Source: Candidatus Gastranaerophilales bacterium (lineage in GTDB: Bacteria; Cyanobacteriota; Vampirovibrionia; Gastranaerophilales; Gastranaerophilaceae). From it: DNA of 64,000 bases. Position numbers and translations under genes: made by a program. This document shows positions 39,701 to 60,010 of this stretch, one piece after another. The notes under the pieces were generated by a model, which saw nothing but the letters and a program-made list of their open reading frames with translations, did not search any database and was not told where the DNA came from. The stretch lies in contig CANQMP010000004.1 in the NCBI GenBank assembly GCA_947624975.1, positions 1-64,000 of the forward strand, given 5' to 3'. Every line of letters starts with the position of its first letter. Positions within the stretch are counted from its first letter, which is position 1.

Positions 39701-40317
39701 AAATTTGTTGGGGTAGAAACCCCAACTTACATTTTGCCCCCTCGCATTTGCAGTTCGCTTACGCTCACACAACTGCTCCCTCTCCCGCACGAAGGTCAAT
39801 TCGACGGGGAGAAGGGATTAACCCACCCTTAGCCCATCCCTTGGAGGGGAAAAAATTTGTTCCTTCCCTTTTTAAGACTCTGCCGAGCGGAACAATCCGG
39901 TGAATTGTTCCGCGAGAGGGAAATTTCTTAATGAGCCATGCGAATTTAGAAATTTCGGTTAGGATGGGTTTTATTTGCTGAGGCATTCGCTTGCAATGAC
40001 GGACAAGTTTTGAGGTTTCATGTTGAGAATTAAACCCACCCCAACCCTCCCTTGAAAAGGGAGGGAGTTGACCCCTCACCCGCATTTGCAGCTCGCTTAC
40101 GCTCATACAACTGCTCCCTCTCCCGCAGGAGTAGAGGGAAATTTTTATGCAAGGGATGAGGAAAAATCTCACGTTAATACCATATATTGCGTGCAGACTT
40201 AGTCTGCCACTTTTTAAAAAATTTGTTGGGGTAGAAACCCCCAACTTACATTTTATCTGCACGAAGTGCCGAAATGGTCTTTTCACTTTTCACCATTTAC
40301 TTATTCTTAAAATTAAA
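39701..40317. repeat. Hairpin-rich intergenic repeat block of 617 bases
   Basis: There is no convincing gene. The block contains several repeated units. A hairpin (GTTGGGGTAGAAACCCCAAC) occurs within 39701-39735 and again, with one extra C, within 40219-40254. A 50-base unit containing CGCATTTGCAG and CTGCTCCCTCTCCCGCA occurs at 39741-39790 and 40075-40128. A perfect 10-bp stem GCGGAACAAT/ATTGTTCCGC lies near 39888-39914, and a stem of CTCCCTT/AAGGGAG near 40047-40065. GCACGAAGTGCCG at 40259 recurs at the window start, and a palindrome related to those of the glycan locus sits at 40193-40207. These look like dispersed, structured non-coding repeats. Confidence 0.75.
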
Positions 40318-40950
40318 CTACCAATTAGTTCTTGTAAGGATTTGTTTTGCGTTTTTGTCGTACATTTTGTCTTTGTACCATGCTCCGCGGAATGTTTTAT
40401 CCTCATTATACATATATTGCATATCGTGTGAGGTGAAATATATTGCACTGACTAACTTTCCGTTCGCACGATATTGTTTTGACATATAAGGGAAATTCGG
40501 GTAATTATCGGATAAAATATCGACATAACGCAGTCTTCCCAATGCATCATAATAATAAACCGTTTTCAAATCGTCTTTATATTGAATTGCGTAACTGATA
40601 AGCAGGTTTCCGCTGTAAAAACCGCACAGGTTTTCTTTATCCGTTTCGGTTACGCCGTTTCTTACAAGCATATAATGCTTTTTCGCATCCAAATCTTTTA
40701 AATAATCTTTGTACTTTGCTCGGAAATCCTTCTTTTCAAATTTATAAACCGTATCATCGGGAAACAATTCCGTCTGATACTTTAATATAACTGCATCACG
40801 GTCAATTTGTGAGATGTTAAGCCAGTCAAATATAATGTTTCCCGTCAAAACAACAGGTGCGGGAGTTTCTTCAATAATAGGTTTAACTTCCTCTGATAAT
40901 GCAGTTTTTCCTACAAGTAAAATACATAAAATTATAATTATCTTTTTCAT
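40318..40950 (-). CDS. Exported protein of unknown function
   Basis: 210 residues with an N-terminal signal segment (MKKIIIILCILLVGKTALS). The mature part is Tyr-, Asp- and Lys-rich. It includes YYYDALGRLRYVDILSD, which is similar in rhythm to YD/RHS-type repeats (YDxxGR), but there is only one copy. No family recognised. I chose the ATG at 40950; an in-frame ATG three codons upstream (40959) is also possible. A TAAAAT box ends about seven bases before the first ATG. Confidence 0.65.
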   Translation of the reverse strand: MKKIIIILCILLVGKTALSEEVKPIIEETPAPVVLTGNIIFDWLNISQIDRDAVILKYQTELFPDDTVYKFEKKDFRAKYKDYLKDLDAKKHYMLVRNGVTETDKENLCGFYSGNLLISYAIQYKDDLKTVYYYDALGRLRYVDILSDNYPNFPYMSKQYRANGKLVSAIYFTSHDMQYMYNEDKTFRGAWYKDKMYDKNAKQILTRTNW

Positions 40951-44705: not shown

Positions 44706-46415
44706 ATGTCAACAAGCATAGATTATTTTGACTATATAAGAATAAGTATCGCTTCACCGGAAAGAATACTGAAATGGTCTTACGGCGAAGTTACTAAACC
44801 TGAAACTATCAACTACCGTACATTAAAACCCGAACGTGACGGCTTGTTCTGCGAAAGGATTTTCGGACCGTCAAAAGACTGGGAATGTTTCTGCGGTAAA
44901 TACAAAAGAGTAAGACACAAAGGTATTATCTGCGAACGCTGCGGCGTTGAAGTTACGGACAGTAAAGTAAGACGCCAGAGAATGGGACATATTAAACTGG
45001 CTGCTCCGGTTTCCCATATTTGGTTCTTGAAAGGTATTCCTTCATATTTGGGCTTGCTTTTGGATATGACCTTAAAAGATTTGGAACAGGTAATTTATTT
45101 TAACAATTACGTTGTTTTAAATCCGGGCGAAAGTGAATTCAGAAAATTACAACTGCTGACCGAAGAAGAATATGAAGATTACATGACCGAACACGAAGAT
45201 TCCGAACTCAAAGTAGGAATCGGTGCAGAAGCCATCAAAGAACTTTTATCGGAAGTAAACACAAAAGAACTTGCGGAAGAAATTAGAAATGAACTTGCAG
45301 GTTCGGTTAACTCCGTACAAAAGAAAAGTAAATTGATTAAACGTCTGAGATTGTTAGACAGTTTGATTTCATCGGAAACCGATCCTACATGGATGATTAT
45401 GGATGTACTTCCCGTTACACCTCCGGATTTAAGACCGATGGTACAGTTAGACGGCGGACGTTTCGCAACATCTGACTTAAACGATTTGTACAGACGTGTA
45501 ATCAACAGAAACAACCGTTTACAAAGACTTTTGGAAATGGGTGCACCCGAAATTATCGTAAGAAACGAAAAACGTATGCTTCAAGAAGCTGTTGATGCTC
45601 TAATTGATAACGGCAGACGCGGAAGAACCGTTGTCGGCCCGAACAACAGAGCATTAAAATCTTTATCTAACATAATTGAAGGTAAGCAAGGTCGTTTCCG
45701 TCAAAACTTGCTCGGTAAACGTGTTGACTACTCAGGCCGTTCGGTTATCGTTGTCGGCCCGCAGCTTAAACTTAACCAGTGCGGTCTGCCAAAAGAAATG
45801 GCTATTGAATTGTTTAAACCGTTTGTTGTTAATAAATTGATAGAAAGAGGATACGTTCAAAACATTAAATCAGCTAAAAAGAAAATCGAACGTTCCGAAG
45901 CTATCGTTTGGGATATATTGGAAGAAGTAATTGAAGGACATCCGGTATTATTAAACCGTGCCCCGACACTTCACAGATTAGGTATTCAGGCGTTTGAACC
46001 GAAACTTGTTGAAGGTCGTGCAATTCAGCTTCACCCGTTAGTATGTACGGCATTTAACGCCGACTTCGACGGGGACCAGATGGCTGTTCACGTACCTTTG
46101 TCAATAGAAGCTCAAACCGAAGCAAGAATGTTGATGTTAGCTACAAATAACATCCTTGCACCTGCAACGGGTAAACCTATCATCACTCCCACACAGGATA
46201 TGGTTTTGGGTATGTATTACCTGACAATACTTAAAAATCCCGAAATGGAGCCGAAAGGTTATTTCTACAACTTCCAGGATGCAATTTCCGCTTTGGAAGT
46301 AGGTGTTATCGACCTTCACGATAAAATCGTCGTAAGGGATGAACACGGTGAAAGACTCGAAACAACCGCAGGCAGAATTATATTTAACGAAGCTGTCAGA
46401 AATGCTTTAGTATAA
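44706..46415 (+). CDS. rpoC1: RNA polymerase gamma subunit (N-terminal part of beta')
   Basis: 569 residues covering the N-terminal half of beta'. The zinc ribbon uses Cys 61, 63, 76 and 79, and the catalytic NADFDGD lies at about 451-457, with its three Asp residues holding the active-site magnesium. The protein stops after EAVRNALV, and the rest of beta' is a separate gene, as in Cyanobacteria and chloroplasts. A 24-base gap with an AAGGAA ribosome site separates it from rpoC2. Confidence 0.97.
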
Positions 46416-46439: not shown

Positions 46440-49400
46440 ATGGAAACAACTTACAATCACGGTAAAAAGACTCTTGATTTCATTAACAAGCAAATGGATA
46501 AAAAAGGATTAAACAATTTGCTTTCACAGATGTATCTTGAGTTTGGCGGTGCAAAGACCGCAGAATTGGCTAACAGCCTTAAAAACCTTGGCTATAAGTA
46601 TGCTACAAAATCCGGAACAACAATCTCTATTGCGGATTTACAAGTTCCTGAGGTTAAAAAAGAGCTGCTTAAAGATGCCGAAAAAGAAATCGAAAAATCA
46701 ACAAACAGATATTTGAAAGGTGAAATCACCGAGGTCGAAAGATATACAAAGGTCATTGACACATGGTCAGAAACGACTGCAAAATTAACAGCATCGGTTG
46801 TTGAAAATTTTGACAGATTAAATCCTGTGTATATGATGGCATTTTCAGGTGCAAGAGGTAACTTATCTCAGGTATCACAGTTAGTCGGTATGAGAGGTTT
46901 GATGGCAGACGCACAAGGTCAAATCATTGACTTGCCGATTAAATCAAACTTTAAAGAAGGCTTATCCGTTACCGAATACATCATTTCTTCATACGGTGCA
47001 AGAAAAGGGCTTGTAGATACGGCGTTGAAAACAGCCGACTCGGGTTATTTGACAAGACGTTTGGTTGACGTTGCACAGGATGTTATTATTCGTGCGGATG
47101 ATTGCCATACGACAAAATCAATTAACATGAAGTCCATAACTGACGGTGACAATGTCATTGTACCTTTAATTGACAGACTTTTAGGCAGAACTATTGCTGA
47201 AGATATCAAAGATACGGACGGAACAGTTCTTGTAAAAGCAGGAACAACAATGAACAGAGATGATGTCAAGAAAGTCGCTCACTTGAATTTACAGGAATTG
47301 AAAGTTCGTTCCGGCTTGACTTGCGGACTTGAATACGGTATTTGCCAGAAGTGCTACGGCTGGGCAATGACAACACAAAAGCTTGTAGATATCGGCGAAG
47401 CTATCGGTATTATTGCAGCGCAGTCTATCGGTGAACCCGGTACACAGCTTACAATGAGAACATTCCACACGGGCGGTGCCGTCGGCGTTAAAGATACGAT
47501 AAGAGAAGTTATTGCAAATATCTCGGGTGAAGTCGTTTCAACGGTTAAGACCAGAGAATTGAGAACTCGCCACGGTGATGTCGTAAATATTTCTAACTAC
47601 GAAACCGATATTGAAATTAAAGGTTCTAAAAAGACCGAAAAATATCATATCCCCGCAGGTTCAACCATATTCTTTACAAACGGCATGAAAGTGGATAAAG
47701 GATTTAAACTTGCTCAATATGAACCCGCATCACAGGGTTCAGGCTCACGTTTAACCGAAAAAGCCACCAAAGATATCACATCCGACTTGTCAGGTGAAGT
47801 CATGTACGAAGATTTTGTTGCCGATGAAAAGAAAGACAGACAGGGAAATGTTTCCAGAACAACAAATAAACAAGGTATTATTTGGGTTCTCGGCGGCGAT
47901 GTTTATAACCTCCCCGGCGGTTCTAAAGTTCTTGTAAAAGACGGTCAGAAAATCAATGAAGGCGAAAAACTTGCAGAAACTTTAACCATATCGGAACACG
48001 GCGGAGAAGTTCGTTTCGGTGAAGATTTGGCTATTGAAGATGTAAAATTTGAAGGCAAAAACATCAAAAAAATCGTTCAAGGTAAAGAATTGACGATAGT
48101 AATAGCTTCGTTAATGCCTGAAAATGCGTCTTTTGAACAAACCAAGAAAGAACAAATCTGGACAGTCGATAAAACAGGCGAAAAATATATCGTAAAAGCT
48201 CCCGTTGACACGACGGTTGAAAACGGCATGATTATCGCCGAATTGTTGGATGATGACTGTGCAGTTACTTCATCGGGCGAAATCAGATATATTGATGTCG
48301 AAGTTGATGATAATCAAATCATTACAAAACCCGGTTCTGTCGTATTTATTCCTGAAGAAGTTCACCAAATTAACAAAGATGTATCTTTGAAAATGGTTGA
48401 AAACGGAACTCAGGTTACGGCAGGCACGGAGGTTGTAAAAGACGTATACTGCCACATCGACGGTATCGTTGAATTCAAAGAATACAACGATGTAATTCAC
48501 GAAATTACAATTCGTCCCGGAGAAATTCACACACTCCCGAGCGTATCGGAATTGAAAGTAGACGAAGGCGAAGTCGTTAAGAAAGGTACCGTAATTGCTG
48601 ACGGTATTAAAGCAAAACAAACTTCCATCGTTACGATTATGGATTCATCTCTTGATGATTTGGATATTGACGATTTGGATGAAGAACTTGATTCATCATT
48701 GTCACTTGATGAAGATACTATTTCAAATCAGCCTATACAAATCCTTATCAGACCCGTTCAGGTATTGAAAGTTCAACAAAAGAATGTTTCGATTAAATTC
48801 AACGCATCTGATGATTTAATTGACATCGTTCCGGTTACTCAACTTCAATACAAAGACGGTGCAAGGGTTAGAAATCTTGACGGTTCGACAATTACGAGAA
48901 CAAGTCTTGTACTTCAAATGCAGGGCTATCTTTCTCACCTCAAAGGTATGGTTGAACTTGATGACAAGGGAAGTTTAAGAATTGTCGTTCTTGAAAACCT
49001 TATCGTTCGTCGTGAATTTGAAGGCAACTCAAAACTGATGTCATCGCTTCAAACCGAACTTCTTGTAAAAGACGGTCAGACTATTGAACCTAAAACACCC
49101 GTTGCAAAAACACAAGTTTTGGCTATCAATAACGGAACTGCAGCGATTAAAGAAGAAAAAGAGGATGCAAGAAGACTGTTATTGACAAGTGAAACCTATG
49201 AAACGGTTGTTTCCGTAAAAGGTAAAGCAAACGTTAAAAAAGGTGACTTTGTGAGATTAGATTCAATTATAGCTGACAGCGGCGAGAAATCAACTGTTTC
49301 AGGTATGGTAACATCTGTTACGAAAGGCAAAATTACAATCCGCAATGGACGTCCTTACTTAATCAGTCCGGGAACAATGCTTCAGGTTGAAGAAGGTGCA

Positions 49401-50306
49401 CTTGTTCTCCGCGGTGATATTATTGCAACACTTGTATTTGAAAGACAAAAAACAGGCGACATCGTTCAAGGTTTGCCTCGTGTTGAAGAACTTCTTGAAG
49501 GCAGAAAGCCGAAAGATTGTGCGATATTAGCAGAAGAAGACGGTGTTGCGGAAATTGAAACCGATGATGATCTGCCAAGACTTTATCTGGTAACGGAAAA
49601 CGGCAGAACTGAAATTAAATACGCAATAGATGCAAACATCGTTGTACAAAATAAACAGCAGATTAAGAAAGGGCAGCCTTTGACAAGCGGGCCTTTAAAT
49701 CCGCACGATGTCATCAGACTTTGCGGAGCTGAAGCTGCTCAACAGTACCTTGTAGATGAAGTACAACGTGTATATCGTTCACAGGGCGTTGAAATCGCCG
49801 ATAAGCACGTTGAAATTATCGTCAGACAGATGACTAAGAAAGTAAAAATCGTTGATGCGGGCGATACGAAGCTTCTGCCAGGTGAACTTGTTGAAATGCA
49901 GACATTTGAAAAGGAAAATCATGAAGTTGAAGAAAAAGGCGGTCAACCTGCAACTTGTGAATACATGTTATTAGGTATTACAAAAGCATCGTTGAACACG
50001 GAAAGCTTCATTTCTGCAGCTTCATTCCAAGAAACAACGAGAATACTTACGGAAGCCGCAGTTGACGGAAAGAAAGACTTATTGAGAGGTTTGAAAGAAA
50101 ACGTTATCATCGGTCGTTTAATTCCGGCAGGAACAGGTTTCCACCACCTTACAAATGCTAACGAAGAAAAAGAACGTGAAGAAAGAAAACGTGCTGTAGC
50201 CCAAAGAAATCAGGCGCGTAAACCTTCCGCAATTCTTGAAGAAATCGAAGGCATGTTTGGTGCTCCTGATTTCAGAATAGGAAATACACAGGAGAGTGAC
50301 GAATAG
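46440..50306 (+). CDS. rpoC2: RNA polymerase beta' subunit C-terminal part
   Basis: 1288 residues. The bridge helix and trigger-loop region are visible (SGARGNLSQVSQLVGMRGLM near 138-157; GTQLTMRTFHTGGA near 331-344), and the trigger loop resumes at TGDIVQGLPRVEELLEGRKP near 1004. The roughly 650 residues between them are an SI3-type insertion, as large as in photosynthetic cyanobacteria. It includes a strongly acidic patch, DSSLDDLDIDDLDEELDSS near 736-755. A zinc-type Cys set (CGLEYGICQKC) is present near 298. The operon ends at the terminator 50313-50345. Confidence 0.97.
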   Translation: METTYNHGKKTLDFINKQMDKKGLNNLLSQMYLEFGGAKTAELANSLKNLGYKYATKSGTTISIADLQVPEVKKELLKDAEKEIEKSTNRYLKGEITEVERYTKVIDTWSETTAKLTASVVENFDRLNPVYMMAFSGARGNLSQVSQLVGMRGLMADAQGQIIDLPIKSNFKEGLSVTEYIISSYGARKGLVDTALKTADSGYLTRRLVDVAQDVIIRADDCHTTKSINMKSITDGDNVIVPLIDRLLGRTIAEDIKDTDGTVLVKAGTTMNRDDVKKVAHLNLQELKVRSGLTCGLEYGICQKCYGWAMTTQKLVDIGEAIGIIAAQSIGEPGTQLTMRTFHTGGAVGVKDTIREVIANISGEVVSTVKTRELRTRHGDVVNISNYETDIEIKGSKKTEKYHIPAGSTIFFTNGMKVDKGFKLAQYEPASQGSGSRLTEKATKDITSDLSGEVMYEDFVADEKKDRQGNVSRTTNKQGIIWVLGGDVYNLPGGSKVLVKDGQKINEGEKLAETLTISEHGGEVRFGEDLAIEDVKFEGKNIKKIVQGKELTIVIASLMPENASFEQTKKEQIWTVDKTGEKYIVKAPVDTTVENGMIIAELLDDDCAVTSSGEIRYIDVEVDDNQIITKPGSVVFIPEEVHQINKDVSLKMVENGTQVTAGTEVVKDVYCHIDGIVEFKEYNDVIHEITIRPGEIHTLPSVSELKVDEGEVVKKGTVIADGIKAKQTSIVTIMDSSLDDLDIDDLDEELDSSLSLDEDTISNQPIQILIRPVQVLKVQQKNVSIKFNASDDLIDIVPVTQLQYKDGARVRNLDGSTITRTSLVLQMQGYLSHLKGMVELDDKGSLRIVVLENLIVRREFEGNSKLMSSLQTELLVKDGQTIEPKTPVAKTQVLAINNGTAAIKEEKEDARRLLLTSETYETVVSVKGKANVKKGDFVRLDSIIADSGEKSTVSGMVTSVTKGKITIRNGRPYLISPGTMLQVEEGALVLRGDIIATLVFERQKTGDIVQGLPRVEELLEGRKPKDCAILAEEDGVAEIETDDDLPRLYLVTENGRTEIKYAIDANIVVQNKQQIKKGQPLTSGPLNPHDVIRLCGAEAAQQYLVDEVQRVYRSQGVEIADKHVEIIVRQMTKKVKIVDAGDTKLLPGELVEMQTFEKENHEVEEKGGQPATCEYMLLGITKASLNTESFISAASFQETTRILTEAAVDGKKDLLRGLKENVIIGRLIPAGTGFHHLTNANEEKEREERKRAVAQRNQARKPSAILEEIEGMFGAPDFRIGNTQESDE

Positions 50307-50681: not shown

Positions 50682-52007
50682 ATGAAAATATTTGCTTTAA
50701 AAAAAAGTAATAATTCCTTTTATACACAATATCAAATAACTATTTTTGATATCGTTATTGCTTATAAACAATTTTCAAAAAATTATAACACCTATTTTAA
50801 ACAGTTAAAAAAATATAAGGAAAAGAAAAAAGACAATATTACCAGAAGATTATTCTTAACATCCGGAAATTTAAGTTTAATTAATGCTCTTGCGATTATC
50901 AATCAAAAGGGTTTAAATAAAAATAGCGAAAACAGCATTTTAATTTGGTCGCATATATCAAATCAGGAATTTGAAGAAGTTTCTACCCAAATCAGCCATT
51001 TAACAAAAATAAAAAAACTTTTTAAATTTTGTAATTGTACACTTGATGATTTATTTAAGTATTTCATAAATAATCATTTAGCTGAATATGATGAGATATA
51101 TCTTATAAATTGCAGGTATATGTTTTTAATAAAAGATTTTCTTTTTCCGAACATAAAGTACTATATTTTTGATGAAGGAGTTTGTGTACTCTTTAAACAC
51201 AAAGGCATTGACTATTCTGATGTCAAAAAATGTTTTTTTATAAAATATTTAGATAAAATAGATTTTTTAGGAGCTGATAATGAATTAAATGAAAAAATTG
51301 AATTTTTAGATAAAAGAGAATTCTTAAAAGTTTCTCAAAGTGCAGCAGAACTTTATCCTATTGGTTTGAATTTAAATCCTGAGGACAAAAACATAATTTT
51401 ATGCGGAACTGGCGAAGGATGTGGCTTTTGGAGTTTTGATGAAATATTTAATTATCAAAATAAAATAATAGATGATTTAAATTTACATGGCTATAATGTA
51501 TTATTTAAACCTCATCCCAGAGATAAATTTAAGTATCAGGAAAAAGAAAATTTCAGAATTATAAATACAAAGCTACCTCTTGAGTGCTACGATTTAAAAG
51601 ATAAATGTCTTGCGGTTGTTTCATTATTTTCTTCTGTTTCTGCTCAAATGTATAGTTTTCATAATATTCCCGGATTTTGTGCACATGGTTTTATAAATGA
51701 TGTTAAAGATATAGGGATAAAAATTGTAAAATATTATTCACCATCTTATGAAATGCTTCTTTCAATTGATGTTAAAACAAAAACATTTAATGAAGTTCAG
51801 AATGAAATTTTGTCTTTATATACAAACTTTTTAAATAAAAAAACATTAATGTCCCAAAATAGTGCCTTAGCCAATAACTACGCGCAATTGCCCCCCCCCC
51901 CCCCATGCATCTCTGAATCTGAAATACGGGATATTATACATATCAATGAACAAAAAAATAAAAAAACATTAGTTTTAGGAAGACTAAATCTTTTTTTGGC
52001 GGACTAA
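50682..52007 (+). CDS. Sialyltransferase-like glycosyltransferase with poly-C tract
   Basis: 441 residues. Three motifs of the bacterial sialyl/polysialyltransferase group (GT38/GT52) appear in order: DEG at 164-166, HP at 278-279 (KPHPRDK) and SS at 317-318. It likely transfers sialic acid or a related sugar onto a cell-surface glycan. A run of 14 C (51891-51904) encodes PPPPP at 404-408, and 33 residues follow. One C fewer or more would replace this tail: C15 stops after four codons, C13 gives about 23 different residues. The stop codon lies inside a palindromic repeat (52001-52012). The family call rests on short motifs only. Confidence 0.62.
   Translation: MKIFALKKSNNSFYTQYQITIFDIVIAYKQFSKNYNTYFKQLKKYKEKKKDNITRRLFLTSGNLSLINALAIINQKGLNKNSENSILIWSHISNQEFEEVSTQISHLTKIKKLFKFCNCTLDDLFKYFINNHLAEYDEIYLINCRYMFLIKDFLFPNIKYYIFDEGVCVLFKHKGIDYSDVKKCFFIKYLDKIDFLGADNELNEKIEFLDKREFLKVSQSAAELYPIGLNLNPEDKNIILCGTGEGCGFWSFDEIFNYQNKIIDDLNLHGYNVLFKPHPRDKFKYQEKENFRIINTKLPLECYDLKDKCLAVVSLFSSVSAQMYSFHNIPGFCAHGFINDVKDIGIKIVKYYSPSYEMLLSIDVKTKTFNEVQNEILSLYTNFLNKKTLMSQNSALANNYAQLPPPPPCISESEIRDIIHINEQKNKKTLVLGRLNLFLAD
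51891..51904 (+). repeat. Homopolymer C14 in coding sequence
   Basis: 14 consecutive C, near the 3' end of the sialyltransferase-like gene. Slippage would swap the C-terminal tail. Confidence 0.95.
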
Positions 52008-52022: not shown

Positions 52023-52766
52023 CTAATTTCTTAAATAATCGTGCCCGCCGTATTTCTTACTTGCTTTATCCCTTAATAAAATCCTGATATCATCTTTATA
52101 ACAGGGTATGTCCCAGCCTTCGGGGTAGCCGTATTTACAAGGTAAAATCCTATATTTTCGATTTATAATATATTTGTTTATTTGACTTTCGTCATGCCAA
52201 AGCGCTATTACATTATTCTCTAAATCATCATGGATATTTTTGCTCAATTCTTCGCATAACTTTAAATATTCTTCACTCAAACCCCCGTTAAATCCTCCCA
52301 TCACATAGCTAATACCCCCCCCCATGGGAATATATGCTTTTGACTTAGGATTTCTGTCATAAGTAAATTCTAAATTTGTTTTATCATAAAACCCCGGGTG
52401 TTGAGTTACCATAATTCCGCCATGGGCGTATTTATCAGGCAAAATATCTTCTTTAATTTCTTTTTCAAAAAGAATATTTGCATTACAAAAGAATAAATAA
52501 TCATACATTTTAAGCTCATCCTTTTGAGATAAAAACATATCAAAACGCATTAGGGTATCATAAGGCCAACCGAGTTTTTTTTGATAAATTTTTTTAACTT
52601 CTTTTTTGTTGTCGTAGTCAATGTGGTCACTATCTGTAAAAACAAAATAAGATTTTTTATGCTTTTTTAGAAAATATTTTTCACAAGATTCATAAAAATC
52701 TTTCCAAAAAACAGTATATTTTCCTGTACAAATGTAAAGAATTGCTATATTTAATTTTTTTGCCAT
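52023..52766 (-). CDS. GT6-family glycosyltransferase (ABO blood-group transferase type) with poly-G tract
   Basis: 247 residues that match GT6 throughout: LYICTGKYTVFW near 10-21, FVFTDSD near 41, the sugar-nucleotide metal motif as NAN at 95-97 (the NxN form typical of bacterial members; animal enzymes have DxD), GGFNGG near 157-162 and WHDESQINKY near 192. Bacterial GT6 enzymes add alpha-1,3-GalNAc or Gal, some to fucosylated acceptors. G9 (52315-52323) encodes Gly 149-151 in the middle of the catalytic domain, so slippage would switch the gene off. I chose the ATG at 52766 behind GGAG; 52781 is another possible start. It overlaps the GT2-GT11 gene upstream. Confidence 0.86.
   Translation of the reverse strand: MAKKLNIAILYICTGKYTVFWKDFYESCEKYFLKKHKKSYFVFTDSDHIDYDNKKEVKKIYQKKLGWPYDTLMRFDMFLSQKDELKMYDYLFFCNANILFEKEIKEDILPDKYAHGGIMVTQHPGFYDKTNLEFTYDRNPKSKAYIPMGGGISYVMGGFNGGLSEEYLKLCEELSKNIHDDLENNVIALWHDESQINKYIINRKYRILPCKYGYPEGWDIPCYKDDIRILLRDKASKKYGGHDYLRN
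52315..52323 (-). repeat. Homopolymer G9 in the GT6 gene
   Basis: Nine consecutive C on the plus strand (G on the coding strand), mid-gene, in the catalytic domain. Confidence 0.95.
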
Positions 52767-54553
52767 TTTATTTTTCTCCATTCCAAAGGTATTATTGTGC
52801 TACTGTTTTCAACAAAAGGATCAGGAGCTAAAACAACCCCTGAAGTATCTTTTCTAAGCCATGCTCCCCACCAGCTAAAAGTTGAATTTGCAATAATTGC
52901 GTGTTTGCATTGGCTCATTAAATACATATCTTTCCAATCTTCTTTGTTATTATAGTTATGATTACCAATAAATTCTACAGGCGCATCTATTTTAAATGTA
53001 TTGAAAAAATCTTCGCAATCAGTTCCAAAAACAAAGAATTCAGGGTTTTTTATATTTTTAGATATAAAATCAAGAGCCTTTTTGTAATAATCCCTATTTA
53101 ATTCCCAGCCCAAATTTAAATAATCCCCCCTTCGTATATGAATAAATACAGGGTTTTCACAAGATTTTATCTTATTTAAAATATTCAAATTATATTCATC
53201 TTGAATATCAGGAAAAGTAAAATCTTTTCTGAGAATATCTTCAATTCCTTCTAAATATTTAGAGTTTTGAAAATAACCTTCATAATATATTTTTTTTGAG
53301 AGGAATAAATTTTCATCATATTCAAAAGGATTTTTTTCTTGAATAATCTTAGTTTCATATTTTGCCACTTTGAACATTTTTCTCAAGAAACCAAAAGGCA
53401 GAGTTTTTTTCATTTTTTTAGCCTTTTGAATATATTCCAAAGAAGCAAATTTTATATCAGGATTAAAAATTCCGAGTTCATATTTTCTAGCGTACGTTCC
53501 GTTAGGCAAAACTCCGTTATGATTAATCTCATTAATTTCATCAAACCAATTTTTATCATAAAGAACTTTACAGCGGCATACTTTCCTTAATTTCACTCCG
53601 AAAGCATATTGAAACATTTGATTTCCAAGACCGCCATTTAAATTAACTATCTTTTTAATATAGCAATGGAGGGGGGGCAGTTTATCACTATTTTCAACTA
53701 TTTCCACCTTTCTTTTAAATTTAATCCCAAATATACATAAAACATTATGCACTTTATTATTTGCTGAATATTGTTTTTTTAAAGAAAAGATTTTTTCGAT
53801 AAATTTATATTTTAGTTTAGTAGTATTATTCGAATTAATACTTTCTCTTATTTTATTTTTTATTTCCTCGTTGTCGGTTAAAAAATCAAGCATATTATCC
53901 TGAACAATCATACTTGCAGTATAAATTTCAGGTTTTAGAGATAAATTGTCCCCATGCAGGCGATATTTTAAAAGAATAGTTGGAAGATTATAAAAATTTA
54001 AGTATCTTATGGCTCTTGACCAGAGTTCATAATCCTCACAGCTTAATCCTTCTTTATATCTCAAATTATATTTCTTGAAATCCTCTTTTCTGAGCATAAC
54101 TGCAGGATGTGCCATAAAGCAACCTTTTAAGAAATCAAAATATTTGGGATTTTGTGGATAACGCCAAATTGCATTTTCTGTCCCGAACACCTCAACTGCA
54201 CCTCCGACTATTGAATACTCAGGATTATTCTCCAAAAACTCAACTTGGAGTCTAAACCTATCGGGAAGAGAAATATCATCGGAATCCATCCTTGCAATAT
54301 ATTCACCCTGAGCAATATCAAAACCGTAATTAAGTGTTTTTACTATACCTTGATGTTTTAACCTGATATAAGTAACCCTACCCTGAACATCCTTATATTT
54401 GTTTATAATTGTTTCAATATTATTTGTAGAACCGTCATCCAATATTAGAAATTCAAAATCTTTATAAGTTTGATTTAAAATACTTTCAATAGCTTCTTTA
54501 AGATATTGTTCATCAGGATTGTAACAAGGCATTATAACTGAAATTCTAGGCAT
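52751..54553 (-). CDS. Fusion of GT2 glycosyltransferase and GT11 alpha-1,2-fucosyltransferase
   Basis: 600 residues from the ATG at 54553. Residues 1-210 form a GT2 (GT-A) domain: RISVIMPCYNPDEQYL, LDDGST and RMDSDDISLP. Residues about 303-600 form a GT11 domain with GGLGNQMFQYAFG, VFIHIRRGDYL and ANSTFSWWGAWL, so it likely adds Fuc alpha-1,2 to galactose. A C7 run (53671-53677) encodes PP at the junction. A stand-alone fucosyltransferase of this type usually starts M-K-K-I; here that position is ATT (I-K-K-I-V). C8 or C6 would end the product shortly after the GT2 part (KLPPPPLLY or KLPPSIAILKR). An upstream TTG at 54577 is a less likely start. Confidence 0.88.
   Translation of the reverse strand: MPRISVIMPCYNPDEQYLKEAIESILNQTYKDFEFLILDDGSTNNIETIINKYKDVQGRVTYIRLKHQGIVKTLNYGFDIAQGEYIARMDSDDISLPDRFRLQVEFLENNPEYSIVGGAVEVFGTENAIWRYPQNPKYFDFLKGCFMAHPAVMLRKEDFKKYNLRYKEGLSCEDYELWSRAIRYLNFYNLPTILLKYRLHGDNLSLKPEIYTASMIVQDNMLDFLTDNEEIKNKIRESINSNNTTKLKYKFIEKIFSLKKQYSANNKVHNVLCIFGIKFKRKVEIVENSDKLPPLHCYIKKIVNLNGGLGNQMFQYAFGVKLRKVCRCKVLYDKNWFDEINEINHNGVLPNGTYARKYELGIFNPDIKFASLEYIQKAKKMKKTLPFGFLRKMFKVAKYETKIIQEKNPFEYDENLFLSKKIYYEGYFQNSKYLEGIEDILRKDFTFPDIQDEYNLNILNKIKSCENPVFIHIRRGDYLNLGWELNRDYYKKALDFISKNIKNPEFFVFGTDCEDFFNTFKIDAPVEFIGNHNYNNKEDWKDMYLMSQCKHAIIANSTFSWWGAWLRKDTSGVVLAPDPFVENSSTIIPLEWRKIKWQKN
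53671..53677 (-). repeat. Homopolymer C7 at the GT2-GT11 domain junction
   Basis: Seven consecutive G on the plus strand (C on the coding strand), exactly between the two enzyme domains. Confidence 0.9.
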
Positions 54554-54580: not shown

Positions 54581-55618
54581 CTAATCTGACGCAGTGCCCC
54601 CCATCGATGGTTTAAGGGGAGAAACGGGTTCTTTTTTAACGGGAATACCAAATACTTTGTATATTCTTTCCTCATTTTTTATTTTTTCACGATATAAAGT
54701 TATATTAAAAACAGATATTTTTTTATCTGATTTTGAAAATTTCACAAAAATTAGATAAGGTATTTTAAAAGCAAAGAAATTAGAATAAAAATCACTGTAT
54801 TTAATTTTTTTGATAATATCTTGCGCCATTTTTTCGTCATATCTTTTTTCAATATATGAAATGGCATCGTTAAGCACGCTTTTATATTGTCTTAACCTTT
54901 CTTTTTTGTTTTCTTTTTTAGTCATATTTGAAATCAAAGAATTTTTTCTTTTTCTATACATTACAACCGGATCTTCAATGCAAGAAATTTGAGGAAAATT
55001 AGAATATATTTTAATAAAAAAGCCTTCATCTTCATGAATTAAATTTTCATCAACAAATGTAATGTTATTAGATATAAGAAAATCTTTTTTAATCAATCTG
55101 CCCCATGCTGTATGATAATTCATATCATAGAATGAATCAAAATTCTCCGGAGTTATTTTTAATTTTGCTGCCATATAGGGCTGTTGAAAAAATTCATTTG
55201 ACTGTTTAACGGAAAGCTTAAATTCCTCATCTACCTCCTGCGTGAATGACCTTACTTTTCCTTGAGCAATATCGGTGTTATCCTGCAAGATTTTTCTATA
55301 CAATTTTTCTAATATATTTTCATCAAATAAATAGTCATCAGAATCTAAAAAGAAAATATACTCGCCTGAAGAAGATTTAAGTCCCGTATTTCTTGTTACG
55401 GCTAAACCTTTATTTGATTTATGGCAAATTAACTTTATACGGTTGTCTTTTTGCATAAAACTTTTTACGATGCTTATAGAATTGTCTTTTGAACAATCAT
55501 CAACGCAAATTATTTCAAGATTTTTATAGCTTTGCGAAACAACACTTTCAAGGCATTGCGCGAGATATTCTTCTACATTATATATTGGAATAATAACGGA
55601 AATTTTTGAAGTATTCAT
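54581..55618 (-). CDS. GT2-family glycosyltransferase with short poly-G tract at the 3' end
   Basis: 345 residues. GT-A nucleotide-sugar domain of GT2: ISVIIPIYNVEEYL near 6-19, VDDCSKDN near 39-46, and FFLDSDDYLF near 94-103. The C-terminal part is Lys-rich with a hydrophobic patch. A G6 run (54597-54602) follows Ser-Met near the end. The present reading ends GGTASD; G7 would read GGHCVRLVFEERFWLSYA and run into the next gene's start, while G8 would end GGALRQISF. A GGAGG ribosome site precedes the ATG. Sugar specificity is unknown. Confidence 0.87.
   Translation of the reverse strand: MNTSKISVIIPIYNVEEYLAQCLESVVSQSYKNLEIICVDDCSKDNSISIVKSFMQKDNRIKLICHKSNKGLAVTRNTGLKSSSGEYIFFLDSDDYLFDENILEKLYRKILQDNTDIAQGKVRSFTQEVDEEFKLSVKQSNEFFQQPYMAAKLKITPENFDSFYDMNYHTAWGRLIKKDFLISNNITFVDENLIHEDEGFFIKIYSNFPQISCIEDPVVMYRKRKNSLISNMTKKENKKERLRQYKSVLNDAISYIEKRYDEKMAQDIIKKIKYSDFYSNFFAFKIPYLIFVKFSKSDKKISVFNITLYREKIKNEERIYKVFGIPVKKEPVSPLKPSMGGTASD
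54597..54602 (-). repeat. Homopolymer G6 near the stop of a GT2 gene
   Basis: Six consecutive C on the plus strand, G on the coding strand. It is the shortest tract of the set and so the least likely to slip often. Confidence 0.75.
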
Positions 55619-55761
55619 TTAGCCTCCAAAGGTGTTTGTAATTCTGCTAAACAAATATCTTTTTTATAAAATTTTATATCCGATAAATTAAGAATAATTT
55701 CTTTCACATCGGCTGTGCATTTATTAATAACAAAGAATTTAAAGCATTTTTTAGGCGACAT
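55615..55761 (-). other. Alternative-frame C-terminal extension of the GT2 gene
   Basis: An open frame of 48 codons that begins ATG-TCG-CCT right after the G10 tract and ends TGA, overlapping the ATG of the next gene (ATGA). It is read as an extension of the GT2 protein when the tract has 9 or 12 G, or could be a small separate gene. Translation starts M-S-P-K-K-C-F-K-F-F-V-I and ends L-Q-T-P-L-E-A-K. I do not recognise it. Confidence 0.55.
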
Positions 55762-56638
55762 TTTGCCCCCCCCCCATCAGGGCAAAGAATACAAAGGAGA
55801 GTAAAAAGCCGACTATTAAAACAAATTCGACAATCACCGCGATAAGAAGAATATTAAAGAGTTTTTTATATTTCTTGCTTCTTCTTTTAATTTTTTTGAA
55901 ATCAACAAAGCTTGAATCCAAAAAGGCATCTGTAAACTTTTTATTATTTAAATAAGTTTTAATGTGATGAGAAAGAATTAAAAATTTTATTAAATCAATA
56001 TTTTTATCATGAATATGAGTTCTGCAAGCTTCATCACCCAATTTGCGATAATGATATAGAACTTCATTTATTTTATAAAACTTGAATCCTTTTTCAAAAA
56101 ATGTAATCCATAATTCCCAGTCCTCACAACCGATATCATTAAGCCATTTTTTATATCCACCTATTTCTTCAAAATGTTTTTTTCTAAACATTGAGGAAGA
56201 TATTAAACAATTAAAATATAAGATTTTTTCTTCATCAAAATTACAATATATGTCATAATTTTCTGCTTGAAAATATTTAACATCACAATAGACAACAGAA
56301 TATTCCGGATTGTCATCAAGTGCGCGGACAAATTTTTCAATATAAGTTTCATCAAGGATATCATCGGCATCAAAAGGAAGAATGTACTCTCCTTTAGCCA
56401 TGTTAATTAATTTATTTCTTGCTGCACAAACTCCGATATTCTCTTTTTCATTAATATAAATAATTTCGGGATGGTCTTTTATTATTTCTTGAATAATATC
56501 CGCACTTTTATCTTCAGATGCATCGTTTAATACTAAAATCTCAATATCTTTATATGTTTGTTTAAAAACAGACTCAAGTGCTTCTTTAACATACTTCTCT
56601 TTATTATAGACAGGTATGACAACTGATACTTTAACCAT
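55751..56638 (-). CDS. GT2-family glycosyltransferase with poly-G tract before the stop
   Basis: 295 residues. GT2 domain with VSVVIPVYNKEKYV, LNDASED and LPFDADDILDE, followed by a C-terminal membrane helix (LLIAVIVEFVLIVGFLLSFVFFALM). A G10 run (55766-55775) comes directly after the helix, and the present frame stops five codons later. With G9 or G12 the frame stays open for 47 more residues and ends TGA at 55615-55617, overlapping the next gene's ATG as ATGA. The 132 bases between the two genes therefore look like coding sequence in the alternative phase. Full-length versus short form probably depends on the tract. Confidence 0.87.
   Translation of the reverse strand: MVKVSVVIPVYNKEKYVKEALESVFKQTYKDIEILVLNDASEDKSADIIQEIIKDHPEIIYINEKENIGVCAARNKLINMAKGEYILPFDADDILDETYIEKFVRALDDNPEYSVVYCDVKYFQAENYDIYCNFDEEKILYFNCLISSSMFRKKHFEEIGGYKKWLNDIGCEDWELWITFFEKGFKFYKINEVLYHYRKLGDEACRTHIHDKNIDLIKFLILSHHIKTYLNNKKFTDAFLDSSFVDFKKIKRRSKKYKKLFNILLIAVIVEFVLIVGFLLSFVFFALMGGGQNVA
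55766..55775 (-). repeat. Homopolymer G10 before the stop of a GT2 gene
   Basis: Ten consecutive C on the plus strand, checked against the reading MGGGQNVA-stop. Confidence 0.95.
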
Positions 56639-56856: not shown

Positions 56857-57798
56857 TTAATGTGTTAAATTGTTGCAAAAATCTTCATAAACCTTTTTTA
56901 TACCCTCTTTAAGAGAAGTTTTTGCCTTAAAACCTAAAGAATTTATTTTTGAAATATCCATAACTTTTCTCATAGTGCCATCCGGCTTTGTTTTATCAAA
57001 AACTATCTTACCTTTGTAACCGACTACTTCTTTTATTAAATCAGCGAGTTCTGATATTGAAATTTCTTCCCCTGTACCGATGTTAATTATTTCCCCTATA
57101 TCTTTTGCTGTTTTATTTTCCATAAGATATACAACTGCACGCGCTAAATCACCTGCGAACATAAATTCCCTTAAAGGTTTTCCGCTTCCCCAAACCGTAA
57201 CGGATTCCGCGTTTGAAACTTTTGCATCATGAAATCTTTTCAAAAGCATTGGAAGAACGTGGGCGTTTTGTTCATGATAATTATCATTAAAACCATACAA
57301 ATTGCAAGGCATCACAGATATAAAATCAGTGCCATATTCTCTATTATAAGCATCACACAGCTTTAATCCGCCAATTTTAGCCAATGCGTACATTTCATTT
57401 GTTTTTTCAAGTTTTGAAGAAAGTAAATATTCTTCCTTTAAAGGTTGCGGAGCGTTTTTGGGATATATACAACTGGAACCCAAAAATAACAGCTTTTTAA
57501 CATTATATTTATAGGAATTTTCAATAACATTAAGCTGAATTTTCATATTTTCTGTAAAAAATTCAACAGGATATGTATTATTAGCATATATTCCCCCTAC
57601 TTTAGCCGCAGCAAGAATAACATAATCGGGTTTATTTATTGAAAAAAATTCACTAACGGCAAAAGAGTCGGATAAATCAAGTTCTTTATGACCTTTAAGA
57701 ATTAAATTGTTATAACCTTTTTCTTTTAATTCTTTTGTTATCGCAGAACCGACAAGCCCCTTATATCCCGCAACAAATATTTTATCATGTTTTTTCAT
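56857..57798 (-). CDS. fcl: GDP-L-fucose synthase
   Basis: Epimerase-reductase that makes GDP-L-fucose from GDP-4-keto-6-deoxymannose. 313 residues, with the NAD(P)-binding loop GYKGLVGSAI near 12-21, the SDR catalytic Tyr-x-x-x-Lys in MYALAKIGG near 136-144 and the family segments LGSSCIYPKNAPQPL and NLYGFNDNYHEQNAHVLP. Its ATG overlaps the stop of gmd by one base (TAATG), so the two are translated together. They supply the donor for the fucosyltransferases in this locus. Confidence 0.95.
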   Translation of the reverse strand: MKKHDKIFVAGYKGLVGSAITKELKEKGYNNLILKGHKELDLSDSFAVSEFFSINKPDYVILAAAKVGGIYANNTYPVEFFTENMKIQLNVIENSYKYNVKKLLFLGSSCIYPKNAPQPLKEEYLLSSKLEKTNEMYALAKIGGLKLCDAYNREYGTDFISVMPCNLYGFNDNYHEQNAHVLPMLLKRFHDAKVSNAESVTVWGSGKPLREFMFAGDLARAVVYLMENKTAKDIGEIINIGTGEEISISELADLIKEVVGYKGKIVFDKTKPDGTMRKVMDISKINSLGFKAKTSLKEGIKKVYEDFCNNLTH

Positions 57799-58892
57799 TA
57801 TATCTCCAAAGAATTATATACTTTGTAACCGTTTTCTTTTAACATTCTTTCTTTTTCAGCCAATTCAAAGTCATTTTCAACCATTTCATCAATTAACATA
57901 TCAAGATTATACTTTGGTTTCCAATTAAGTTCGTTTCTTGCTTTAGAACTGTCCCCTAAAAGTAAATCAACTTCTGCGGGTCTAAAATAGCGTGGGTCAA
58001 CCTCAATAACAATTTTGCCCGTTTTTTTATCTATTCCTTTTTCATCAAGCCCTGAGCCTATAAATTCCAAATCCATATCCAGACGAGCAAAAACTTTTTT
58101 ACAAAAATCTCTTATTGATGTTGTAATACCCGTTGCTAAAACGTAATTATCCGGTTTTTCGGCTTGCAATATTAAATACATTCCTTCAACATAATCTTTA
58201 GCATGCCCCCAATCTCGTTTTGCATTAAGGTTGCCTAAATATAACTTATCCTGTAGTCCCATTTTTATTTTTGAAGCTGCCATTGTTATTTTTCGTGTAA
58301 CAAAAGTTTCACCTCGTCTTGGTGATTCGTGGTTGAATAATATTCCGTTTGAAGCAAATATATTAAAACTTTCACGGTAATTAACACAAATCCAATAAGC
58401 GTATAATTTTGCAGCAGCATAAGGAGAACGCGGATAAAAAGGTGTTGTTTCTTTTTGTATCGGTTCTTGTATAAGTCCATACAACTCTGATGTTGAAGCC
58501 TGATAAAACTTTGTTTTATTTTCAAGCTTGTTAAGCCTTATTGCCTCAAGCAGCCTTAATGTGCCTAAAGCATCAATATCTGCAGTATATTCAGCACAAT
58601 CCCAAGAAACTTTTACGTGTGATTGAGCTGCCAAATTGTAGATTTCATCGGGTTCAATATCGTGTATTAATTTTATCAGATTTGATGAATCGGATAAATC
58701 TCCGTAATGAAGAATAAAATTTGAGCTGTCGTGTATATCTTGATAAATATGGTCAATTCTTTGAGTATTAAAAGAACTCGCACGTCTTTTTATACCATGC
58801 ACTTCGTAACCTTTTGAAATTAATAATTCGGAAAGATAGCTTCCGTCTTGTCCTGTTACTCCCGTTATTAAAGCTTTTTTCATATCATTCAC
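57798..58892 (-). CDS. gmd: GDP-mannose 4,6-dehydratase
   Basis: First committed step to GDP-L-fucose. 364 residues with the SDR loop [14 protein letters not shown] near 10-23, the catalytic Tyr and Lys in [12 protein letters not shown] near 161-172, and the family segments [13 protein letters not shown] and [17 protein letters not shown]. The ATG at 58892 has AGG six bases upstream; the ATG at 58883 is another possible start. Adjacent to fcl, and divergent from the GT10-type fucosyltransferase gene. Confidence 0.95.
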
Positions 58893-59053: not shown

Positions 59054-60010
59054 ATGAAAATCCGAGATAAAATAACAATTAAAATAGCTTATTGCGATTT
59101 TTGGGCAAACTGTAAATTTGACGAATTACATTTTACAAAAATTTTAAATGAAAAATATAATTTAGTGTACAGCGATGAACCTGATTACCTTTTTTGTTCA
59201 TGTTTTGGAAGAGAACATTTTAAATATAAAGACTGTATTAAAATATTTTATACTGGAGAAAATTGTGTATGTGATTTTAATCTTTACGATTACGGATTGT
59301 CATCTTGTTATATGACATTTACAGACAGGCATTTAAGATTTCCTCAATGGATACCTTATGATTTAAATCTAATAAGTTTAATGGAATATGGCAGAGAAAA
59401 AAATCCTGACTTAGATAAAAAGAAATTTTGTAATTTCATATATTCAAATGCGCATTGTGCGGAACAATTCCGAGAAGTGTTTTTTGAGAAATTATCAAAA
59501 TATAAAAAAGTTGATTCAGGCGGGAGTGTTCTAAATAATTTAGGATATAAAGTTCAAAATAAATTAGATTTTATTAAAGACTATAAATTTACCATTGCTA
59601 TTGAGAATTCTTTTGTTCAAGGTTACATAACAGAAAAACTAAGCGACCCTTTAATTGCAGGTTCTATGCCTTTATATTACGGCGACCCAATGGTTGGCGA
59701 AGAATTTAATACAAATTCTTTTGTGAATTTAAGAGATTTTAAGTCAATTAACGAAGCTATTGAATATATTGTTGAGCTTGATAAAAACGATAAATTATAT
59801 TTAGAAAAATTACAAAGTCCTTGTTTTATTCATGCTAATGTTGAGAATTATTACAGAAATAAAACTATTGATTTTTTCAGTAATATTTTTGACCGCGAAA
59901 AGGAAGAAGCGAAAAGAGTAACCCGATTTGGCTGGACTAAATATTATGTAGATGCCATCGCCCCCCCCCCCCCATCGCCTTGGTTTAAAAAAATATTAAA
60001 AAAATATTAA
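59054..60010 (+). CDS. GT10-type alpha-1,3/4-fucosyltransferase with poly-C tract at the 3' end
   Basis: 318 residues with the GT10 core pattern FTIAIENSFVQGYITEKLSD near 178-197, LIAGSMPLYYGDP after it, and IFYTGENC near 74. Likely transfers fucose from GDP-fucose to GlcNAc or Glc, as in Lewis-type glycans. C13 (59961-59973) encodes PPPP, followed by the basic tail SPWFKKILKKY. C14 would end IALV and C12 would end HRLGLKKY. In related fucosyltransferases a C-terminal basic amphipathic tail attaches the enzyme to the membrane, so tract length may control this. Confidence 0.87.
   Translation: MKIRDKITIKIAYCDFWANCKFDELHFTKILNEKYNLVYSDEPDYLFCSCFGREHFKYKDCIKIFYTGENCVCDFNLYDYGLSSCYMTFTDRHLRFPQWIPYDLNLISLMEYGREKNPDLDKKKFCNFIYSNAHCAEQFREVFFEKLSKYKKVDSGGSVLNNLGYKVQNKLDFIKDYKFTIAIENSFVQGYITEKLSDPLIAGSMPLYYGDPMVGEEFNTNSFVNLRDFKSINEAIEYIVELDKNDKLYLEKLQSPCFIHANVENYYRNKTIDFFSNIFDREKEEAKRVTRFGWTKYYVDAIAPPPPSPWFKKILKKY
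59961..59973 (+). repeat. Homopolymer C13 near the 3' end of the GT10-type gene
   Basis: Thirteen consecutive C, checked against the reading A-P-P-P-P-S-P-W. Confidence 0.95.

Follow-up and report, generated by a model that had tools for sequence, protein, structure and literature searches.

Known systems of tract-controlled expression

Among the closest described systems is that of Helicobacter canadensis, in which the length of a poly-G tract at the 3' end of a gene (G13, measured lengths 11-16) sets whether the two neighbouring frames HCAN_0660 and HCAN_0661 are translated apart or as one, an arrangement that its authors considered perhaps unprecedented (PMC2823697). The locus described here may be similar, in that its frames and a candidate TTG start with a Shine-Dalgarno sequence would allow both separate and joined translation around a C7 run. 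HCAN_0660 and HCAN_0661 are two hypothetical proteins whose variation was measured, whereas the present C7 run belongs to recognisable enzymes and is known from one sequence. In the futA and futB genes of H. pylori, fucosyltransferase expression varies with the length of a poly-C tract, and a blood-group-like surface antigen varies with it (PMC2583950). These fut tracts lie inside stand-alone genes and act as on/off switches, whereas here the run lies in a fusion linker or, alternatively, in the leader of the second enzyme. H. pylori futC is also a phase-variable fucosyltransferase. Finally, the enzymes that make the blood-group-B antigen of E. coli O86 include the GT6 enzyme WbnI (PMC4202792). 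The likeness lies in a set of GT2, GT11 and GT6 enzymes building first H and then an A/B-type epitope; in O86 the enzymes are separate, whereas here GT2 and GT11 are fused and the GT6 gene carries a tract. The O86 set also includes WbnJ and WbnK, and to our knowledge the O86 enzymes are not phase variable.

Poly-C phase variation of fucosyltransferases, bacterial H/A/B epitopes with GT6 enzymes, and the idea of a tract that sets two proteins or one are already known. What is new is that they come together, and in this host lineage, with switching as the putative part of the picture. A literature search for phase variation in Melainabacteria or Gastranaerophilales found no publication, an absence that is weak evidence.

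The fusion gene and its glycan locus

The window, i.e. the whole stretch of DNA analysed, comprises 64,000 nucleotides of a contig of a Candidatus Gastranaerophilales bacterium. Its rpoC gene comes in two pieces, at 44706-46415 and at 46440-50306, as is characteristic of Cyanobacteria and of their relatives that do not photosynthesise. The gene under study, its two halves and the tract are:

52751..54553, - strand: GT2-GT11 fusion gene (open reading frame; Pfam PF00535 and PF01531; ATG picked by homologue alignment)
53708..54553, - strand: GT2 half, GT-A fold, tail CIFGIKFK (Pfam; tblastn against free GT2 genes; model and Foldseek)
52754..53653, - strand: GT11 half, motifs GGLGNQMFQYAFG and HIRRGDY (Pfam; alignment with free GT11 genes)
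53671..53677, - strand: C7 tract (G7 on the + strand), flanks ATGGA-G7-CA

The open reading frame codes for 600 aa from the ATG at 54553, or for 608 aa if a TTG further upstream (54577) is used, and stops at 52751; homologues make the ATG the more likely start. Pfam places GT2 at residues 13-149 and GT11 at residues 426-585. The GT11 half matches PF01531 at 78-80 bits (cut-off 23.9) and aligns with its family at the HxRRGD motif, present as HIRRGDY; it gave no match in a PDB sequence search. It is a probable alpha-1,2-fucosyltransferase, and transfer of alpha-1,2 fucose to galactose is suggested by its family and by GDP-fucose genes nearby. The GT2 half groups with GT-A enzymes such as SpsA in Foldseek, and NCBIfam gave no equivalog above its cut-off for it. 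An AlphaFold model of the fusion built on an 18-row alignment (mean pLDDT 82.7, pTM 0.53) consists of two well-predicted parts, the relative placement of which is unreliable given the pTM. The sole long low-confidence linker spans residues 284-297 of the 600-aa form, and the tract codes for residues 293-295. The C7 run therefore lies in frame within one open reading frame and codes for a disordered linker between GT2 and GT11, and the earlier note was right to place it there, with both enzymes in one protein.

The glycan locus extends over 50.6-80 kb of the contig and comprises polysialyltransferase-like genes, several GT2 genes, GT10, GT6 and GDP-fucose genes and, by our reading, neuraminate-type synthesis genes. 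Five other G/C tracts of 9-15 lie in the same locus as C7. The neighbours of the fusion gene are:

50682..52007, + strand: polysialyltransferase-like gene, C14 (51891-51904) near its 3' end (Pfam)
52023..52781, - strand: GT6 gene of the ABO/BoGT6a type, which overlaps the fusion gene at the latter's end (Pfam PF03414; NF041524 above cut-off; PDB 4ayj, E 1.9e-70)
52315..52323, - strand: G9 tract inside the GT6 gene, in frame
54581..56638, - strand: two further GT2 genes with 3'-end coding-strand runs G6 (54597-54602) and G10 (55766-55775) (Pfam)
56857-57798, - strand: NAD-dependent epimerase, probably GDP-fucose synthase (Pfam)
57798-58892, - strand: GDP-mannose 4,6-dehydratase (Pfam)
59054..60010, + strand: GT10 alpha-1,3-fucosyltransferase gene, C13 (59961-59973) near its 3' end (Pfam)

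The GT6 protein matches solved enzymes over its full length, both BoGT6a (the 4ayj entry listed above) and the human ABO transferase (E about 5e-27). Its tract is G9 and in frame here, G10 and out of frame in the nearest relative (G291/L119), and G11 and in frame in G091/L120. Read from the sequences, these differences between genomes point to phase states within this cassette.

Some other features of the locus and its surroundings may be mentioned. In the GT2 gene that has G10 at its 3' end, the 295-aa product would become 340 aa at G9 and 311 aa at G11, which resembles the C-terminal switches of H. canadensis. On contig C4 (L039), two adjoining polysialyltransferase-like genes (70169-71414 and 71490-72773) also carry tracts, one being out of frame at G12 (70784; it opens at G11) and the other in frame at G11. 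A repeat-like sequence CCCCTT...GGGGG occurs at 39765-40318 and 54581-54640; the GT2 gene at 54581 seems to have gained it at its 3' end (...SPLKPSMGGTASD), where it resembles a spacer ORF near 40 kb.

Length, flanks and chance level of the C7 tract

The codons of the run are Pro-Pro-Leu, and the run is interrupted as C7-T-CC. Dinucleotide shuffles lead one to expect 0.72 exact C7/G7 runs per 64 kb window, and synonymous resampling of the fusion ORF produces one in 3.7% of trials. The genome has 95 G/C runs of 7 or more, 79 of which are of 9 or more, leaving 16 of length 7-8 against about 17 estimated by independent-base arithmetic for random sequence of its composition; runs of 9 or more are far above chance (79 against an estimate below 1). 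Tract length by itself is unremarkable, and it is position, flanks and neighbourhood that stand out. Judged as a contingency locus, C7 is not longer than chance; a change in its length alters the reading frame, and it lies in a surface-structure gene of a tract-rich genome.

Long tracts in the glycan genes are mostly flanked here as [A/T]T-G(n)-C[A/G]. The sequence AT-GGA-G7-CA looks like a G10 with one G turned to A, which can be taken only as a hint. Among seven exact-7 runs read in the genome, CA follows just one, the C7 of the fusion gene. The same C7 is obtainable from TGCCTGCC of the nearest relative (L119/G291) by two substitutions, with no slippage required.

Reading frames and three possible outputs

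Frames were computed for tract lengths C5-C11. The frame of the GT2 start reaches GT11 at C7 and C10, giving the fusion. At C6 and C8 it stops at 301 and 299 aa, 7-10 residues past the tract start, in agreement with an earlier prediction that the product would end within about ten residues. Two further elements lie upstream of the tract in the order AAAGGTGGAAATAG-TTG-AAAATAGTGATAAAC:

53695..53697, - strand: candidate TTG start for a free-standing GT11, off-frame at C7 and in frame at C8; its counterpart is the GT11 ATG in the nearest relative (L119)
53704..53709, - strand: candidate Shine-Dalgarno sequence AGGTGG for this TTG, with AGGTGA in the same place in L119

The TTG frame reaches GT11 at C5, C8 and C11. 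With C6 or C9, neither the GT2 start nor the TTG reads into GT11. Because the two frames enter GT11 at different tract lengths, the layout is three-state and not two-state. At C8, translation from the TTG would yield LKIVINCPPLHCY-IKKIV..., a protein of 315 aa with a 13-residue leader, equal in length to that of the 316-aa GT11 of the relative. The TTG has a five-base Shine-Dalgarno match, AGGTG, at a spacing of 7, the same spacing as AGGTGA before the L119 ATG. About 6% of random coding sites show a match of five or more, versus 12/28 window genes sampled; all 28 start with ATG, the sample having been picked for a first start that is ATG. TTG starts are generally weak, and conservation of the Shine-Dalgarno sequence may not reflect translation initiation, since its letters also code for part of the GT2 tail. 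The view that C8 or C6 alike would leave no GT11 is not supported, because at C8 the TTG with AGGTGG upstream of the tract reads into it. Of the proposal that fucosylation is toggled while GT2 is kept, the second part stands, as GT2 survives every frame, and the fusion is indeed frame-dependent; the first is weakened in that C8 could yield GT11 from the TTG. An internal ATG (codon 321 of the 608-aa form) was considered as a rescue start and rejected, as it would lose the first strand and the GGLGNQ loop.

Separate, fused and tract-bearing GT11 genes in relatives

Relatives were compared using one genome per species. The nearest one, G291/L119, has GT2 and GT11 (69% and 82% identical, respectively) as two genes that overlap without being fused: the last codons of its GT2 read ...KQVKS-TGA, a stop that the ATG of GT11 overlaps as ATGA. 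This free GT11 of 316 aa has the N-terminus MKIKFCLPAFFWYIKKIVNLNGG, its ATG lying 13 codons before IKKIV, where the codon is itself ATT. The earlier note had taken the ATT at IKKIV for a lost ATG start, an idea that we reject because ATT is normal there in this branch. The check that it suggested, for split versions in relatives with ATG at this point, does find separate genes, with the ATG 13 codons upstream and not at the domain start. GT2 and GT11 are also adjacent yet separate in G243, G034, G328 and G336. In a MAFFT alignment of the window and relative junctions, a two-base gap falls just before the start region; by our reading, one of these bases deletes the GT2 stop, and the other could equally fall in the tract (C8 to C7).

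Fusions at the same junction that have no C/G tract occur in G091 (583 aa, A-rich junction), in G035 (560 aa) and in a roe-deer 'Alphaproteobacteria' MAG (L102), and a more distant GT2-GT11 fusion occurs in G120/L093. A repeat-driven origin of all GT2-GT11 fusions was rejected in view of the first three, and fusion cannot be said to depend on the repeat, which does not in turn refute switching here. Two-domain fusions with no repeat at the junction were named in the earlier note as a refuting case, and those three fit it as far as a need for the tract is concerned. The other GT2-GT11 genes of Gastranaerophilales share the domain order and have their junction straight after an FGIKFK-type GT2 tail; in G091 and G035 (fused) and in G291, G243, G034, G328 and G336 (separate) this junction has no C/G tract, unlike that of the window.

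A tract immediately preceding the GT11 domain nevertheless recurs in the family. A free GT11 in G091 (C14, L114) has its own 26-residue leader with G13 in frame, and G12 or G14 would stop it at 25 or 40 aa. In G259 (C118, L106), a leader resembling the GT2 C-terminal tail (...ICILGIKIKIM...) is followed by C9 and then by a GT11-GT6 fusion; at C9 this fusion is not in frame, and C8 or C11 would give it an open frame of 570-571 aa.

Tracts across the genome, genus and family

The number of G/C runs of 9 or more varies from 0 to 176 per genome of about 2 Mb among 33 genomes of the genus (G000-G032), and such runs were found in 31/33 genera sampled in the family. The upper end of this range is comparable with or above the numbers in classic phase-variable pathogens.

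Outside the glycan locus, about 28 prepilin-type genes with an FTLAEVLITL signature harbor a tract of G8-G19 that separates this signature from a leader common to the genes (MKKITISTLNPS-GGGG-FSPSKGF...) (L126, L128, L129, L132, L136, L137, L139, L141-L144, L146, L148, L150, L154, L159, L160, L162, L170, L172-L175, L177, L181, and 79189-79943 of contig C4, L039). Only about 5 of them are open from a start before the tract, and the set looks, from its sequences, like a large phase-variable family that is mostly off. Tract flanks are notably uniform, being CCCATC-G(n)-ATT in the prepilin leaders and, as given above, [A/T]T-G(n)-C[A/G] in the glycan genes. Several contigs start or end in a long G/C tract (L131, L137, L143 and L174, at the ends of C5, C8, C10 and C38), as if the assembly broke at long G/C repeats.

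Proposed mechanism and alternative explanations

The reading that we put forward, with a probability of roughly 0.45, is that C7 is a short contingency tract, probably slow to switch, within a surface-glycan locus, its frame setting three GT2/GT11 outcomes. The ancestral state would have been tandem GT2 and GT11 genes overlapping stop-to-start, from which a small deletion in this lineage would have taken out the GT2 stop, so that the GT2 frame would run into the GT11 leader, in which the C-run precedes the GT11 domain. At C7/C10 a single GT2-GT11 fusion would be made; at C8/C11 GT2 would end after a few residues and GT11 would be made separately from its own weak TTG upstream of the tract; at C6/C9 GT2 would be made alone. 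GT2 would add a sugar, likely beta-galactose by analogy with E. coli O86, and GT11 an alpha-1,2-fucose (H antigen) using GDP-fucose supplied by the genes at 56857-58892. GT6 would then add an ABO-type sugar, giving an A- or B-like cap, and C6/C9 would also deprive GT6, whose acceptor would depend on the GT11 step. This reading is supported by the computed frames, the overlapping genes of the relative, the equal leader length at C8, AGGTG before the TTG, the tracts ahead of GT11 in G091 and G259, the GT6 tract differences, the 79 runs in the genome and the disordered linker. It is weakened by the chance-level length, the T interruption, a length shorter than that of the clear tracts of the locus, the derivation by two substitutions, the general weakness of TTG starts and the double role of the Shine-Dalgarno letters as GT2 tail codons. 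Short homopolymer runs slip rarely, and a low switching rate would be expected at C7, which is both short and interrupted.

The strongest rival is a permanent fusion in which C7 is a chance codon choice with no meaningful switching rate, a reading that we regard as possible if doubtful. The 0.72 occurrences expected per window, the lack of genome-wide excess of runs of 7-8, the interrupting T and the derivation by point substitution all agree with it, as does the existence of fusions lacking a C/G tract. Against it, such a run has only about a 4% chance of arising in this ORF, it sits amid other tracts at the one place where frame matters to two enzymes, and two other GT11 genes carry real tracts at the matching place. 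An on/off switch of the kind first proposed, in which GT11 comes only from C7 (or C10), C6 and C8 abolish it and the TTG is unused, would fit the early stops of the GT2 frame, the damage that starting at the first ATG inside GT11 would do, and the tract with a leader-dependent GT11 in G259; it appears unlikely given a start codon with its Shine-Dalgarno sequence in the C8 frame, at the true start of the relative and with an equal leader. That the true length is C8, misread through an assembly or consensus error, with two separate genes as in the nearest relative, seems very improbable: C8 would exactly recreate that arrangement, but runs of 7 are normally sequenced reliably and the C7 frame joins two complete domains where three independent fusions do.

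Significance

The contingency-tract reading can be carried further. A one-base change in the C-run might move an H-antigen-type enzyme pair among three states, with GT11 fused, separate or absent. Channelling or abundance would not be the same for fused as for free GT11, and this would set the acceptor supply to a phase-variable GT6; we consider this extended version rather unlikely. Should C7 prove to switch, recognisable enzymes would offer an example of phase variation that selects either one bifunctional fusion or two individual proteins, an idea proposed once before, for the two hypothetical proteins of Helicobacter canadensis. Moreover, these uncultured, non-photosynthetic cyanobacterial relatives from animal guts carry ABO/Lewis-type glycan genes together with long G/C tracts, of which a single genome can have about 176.
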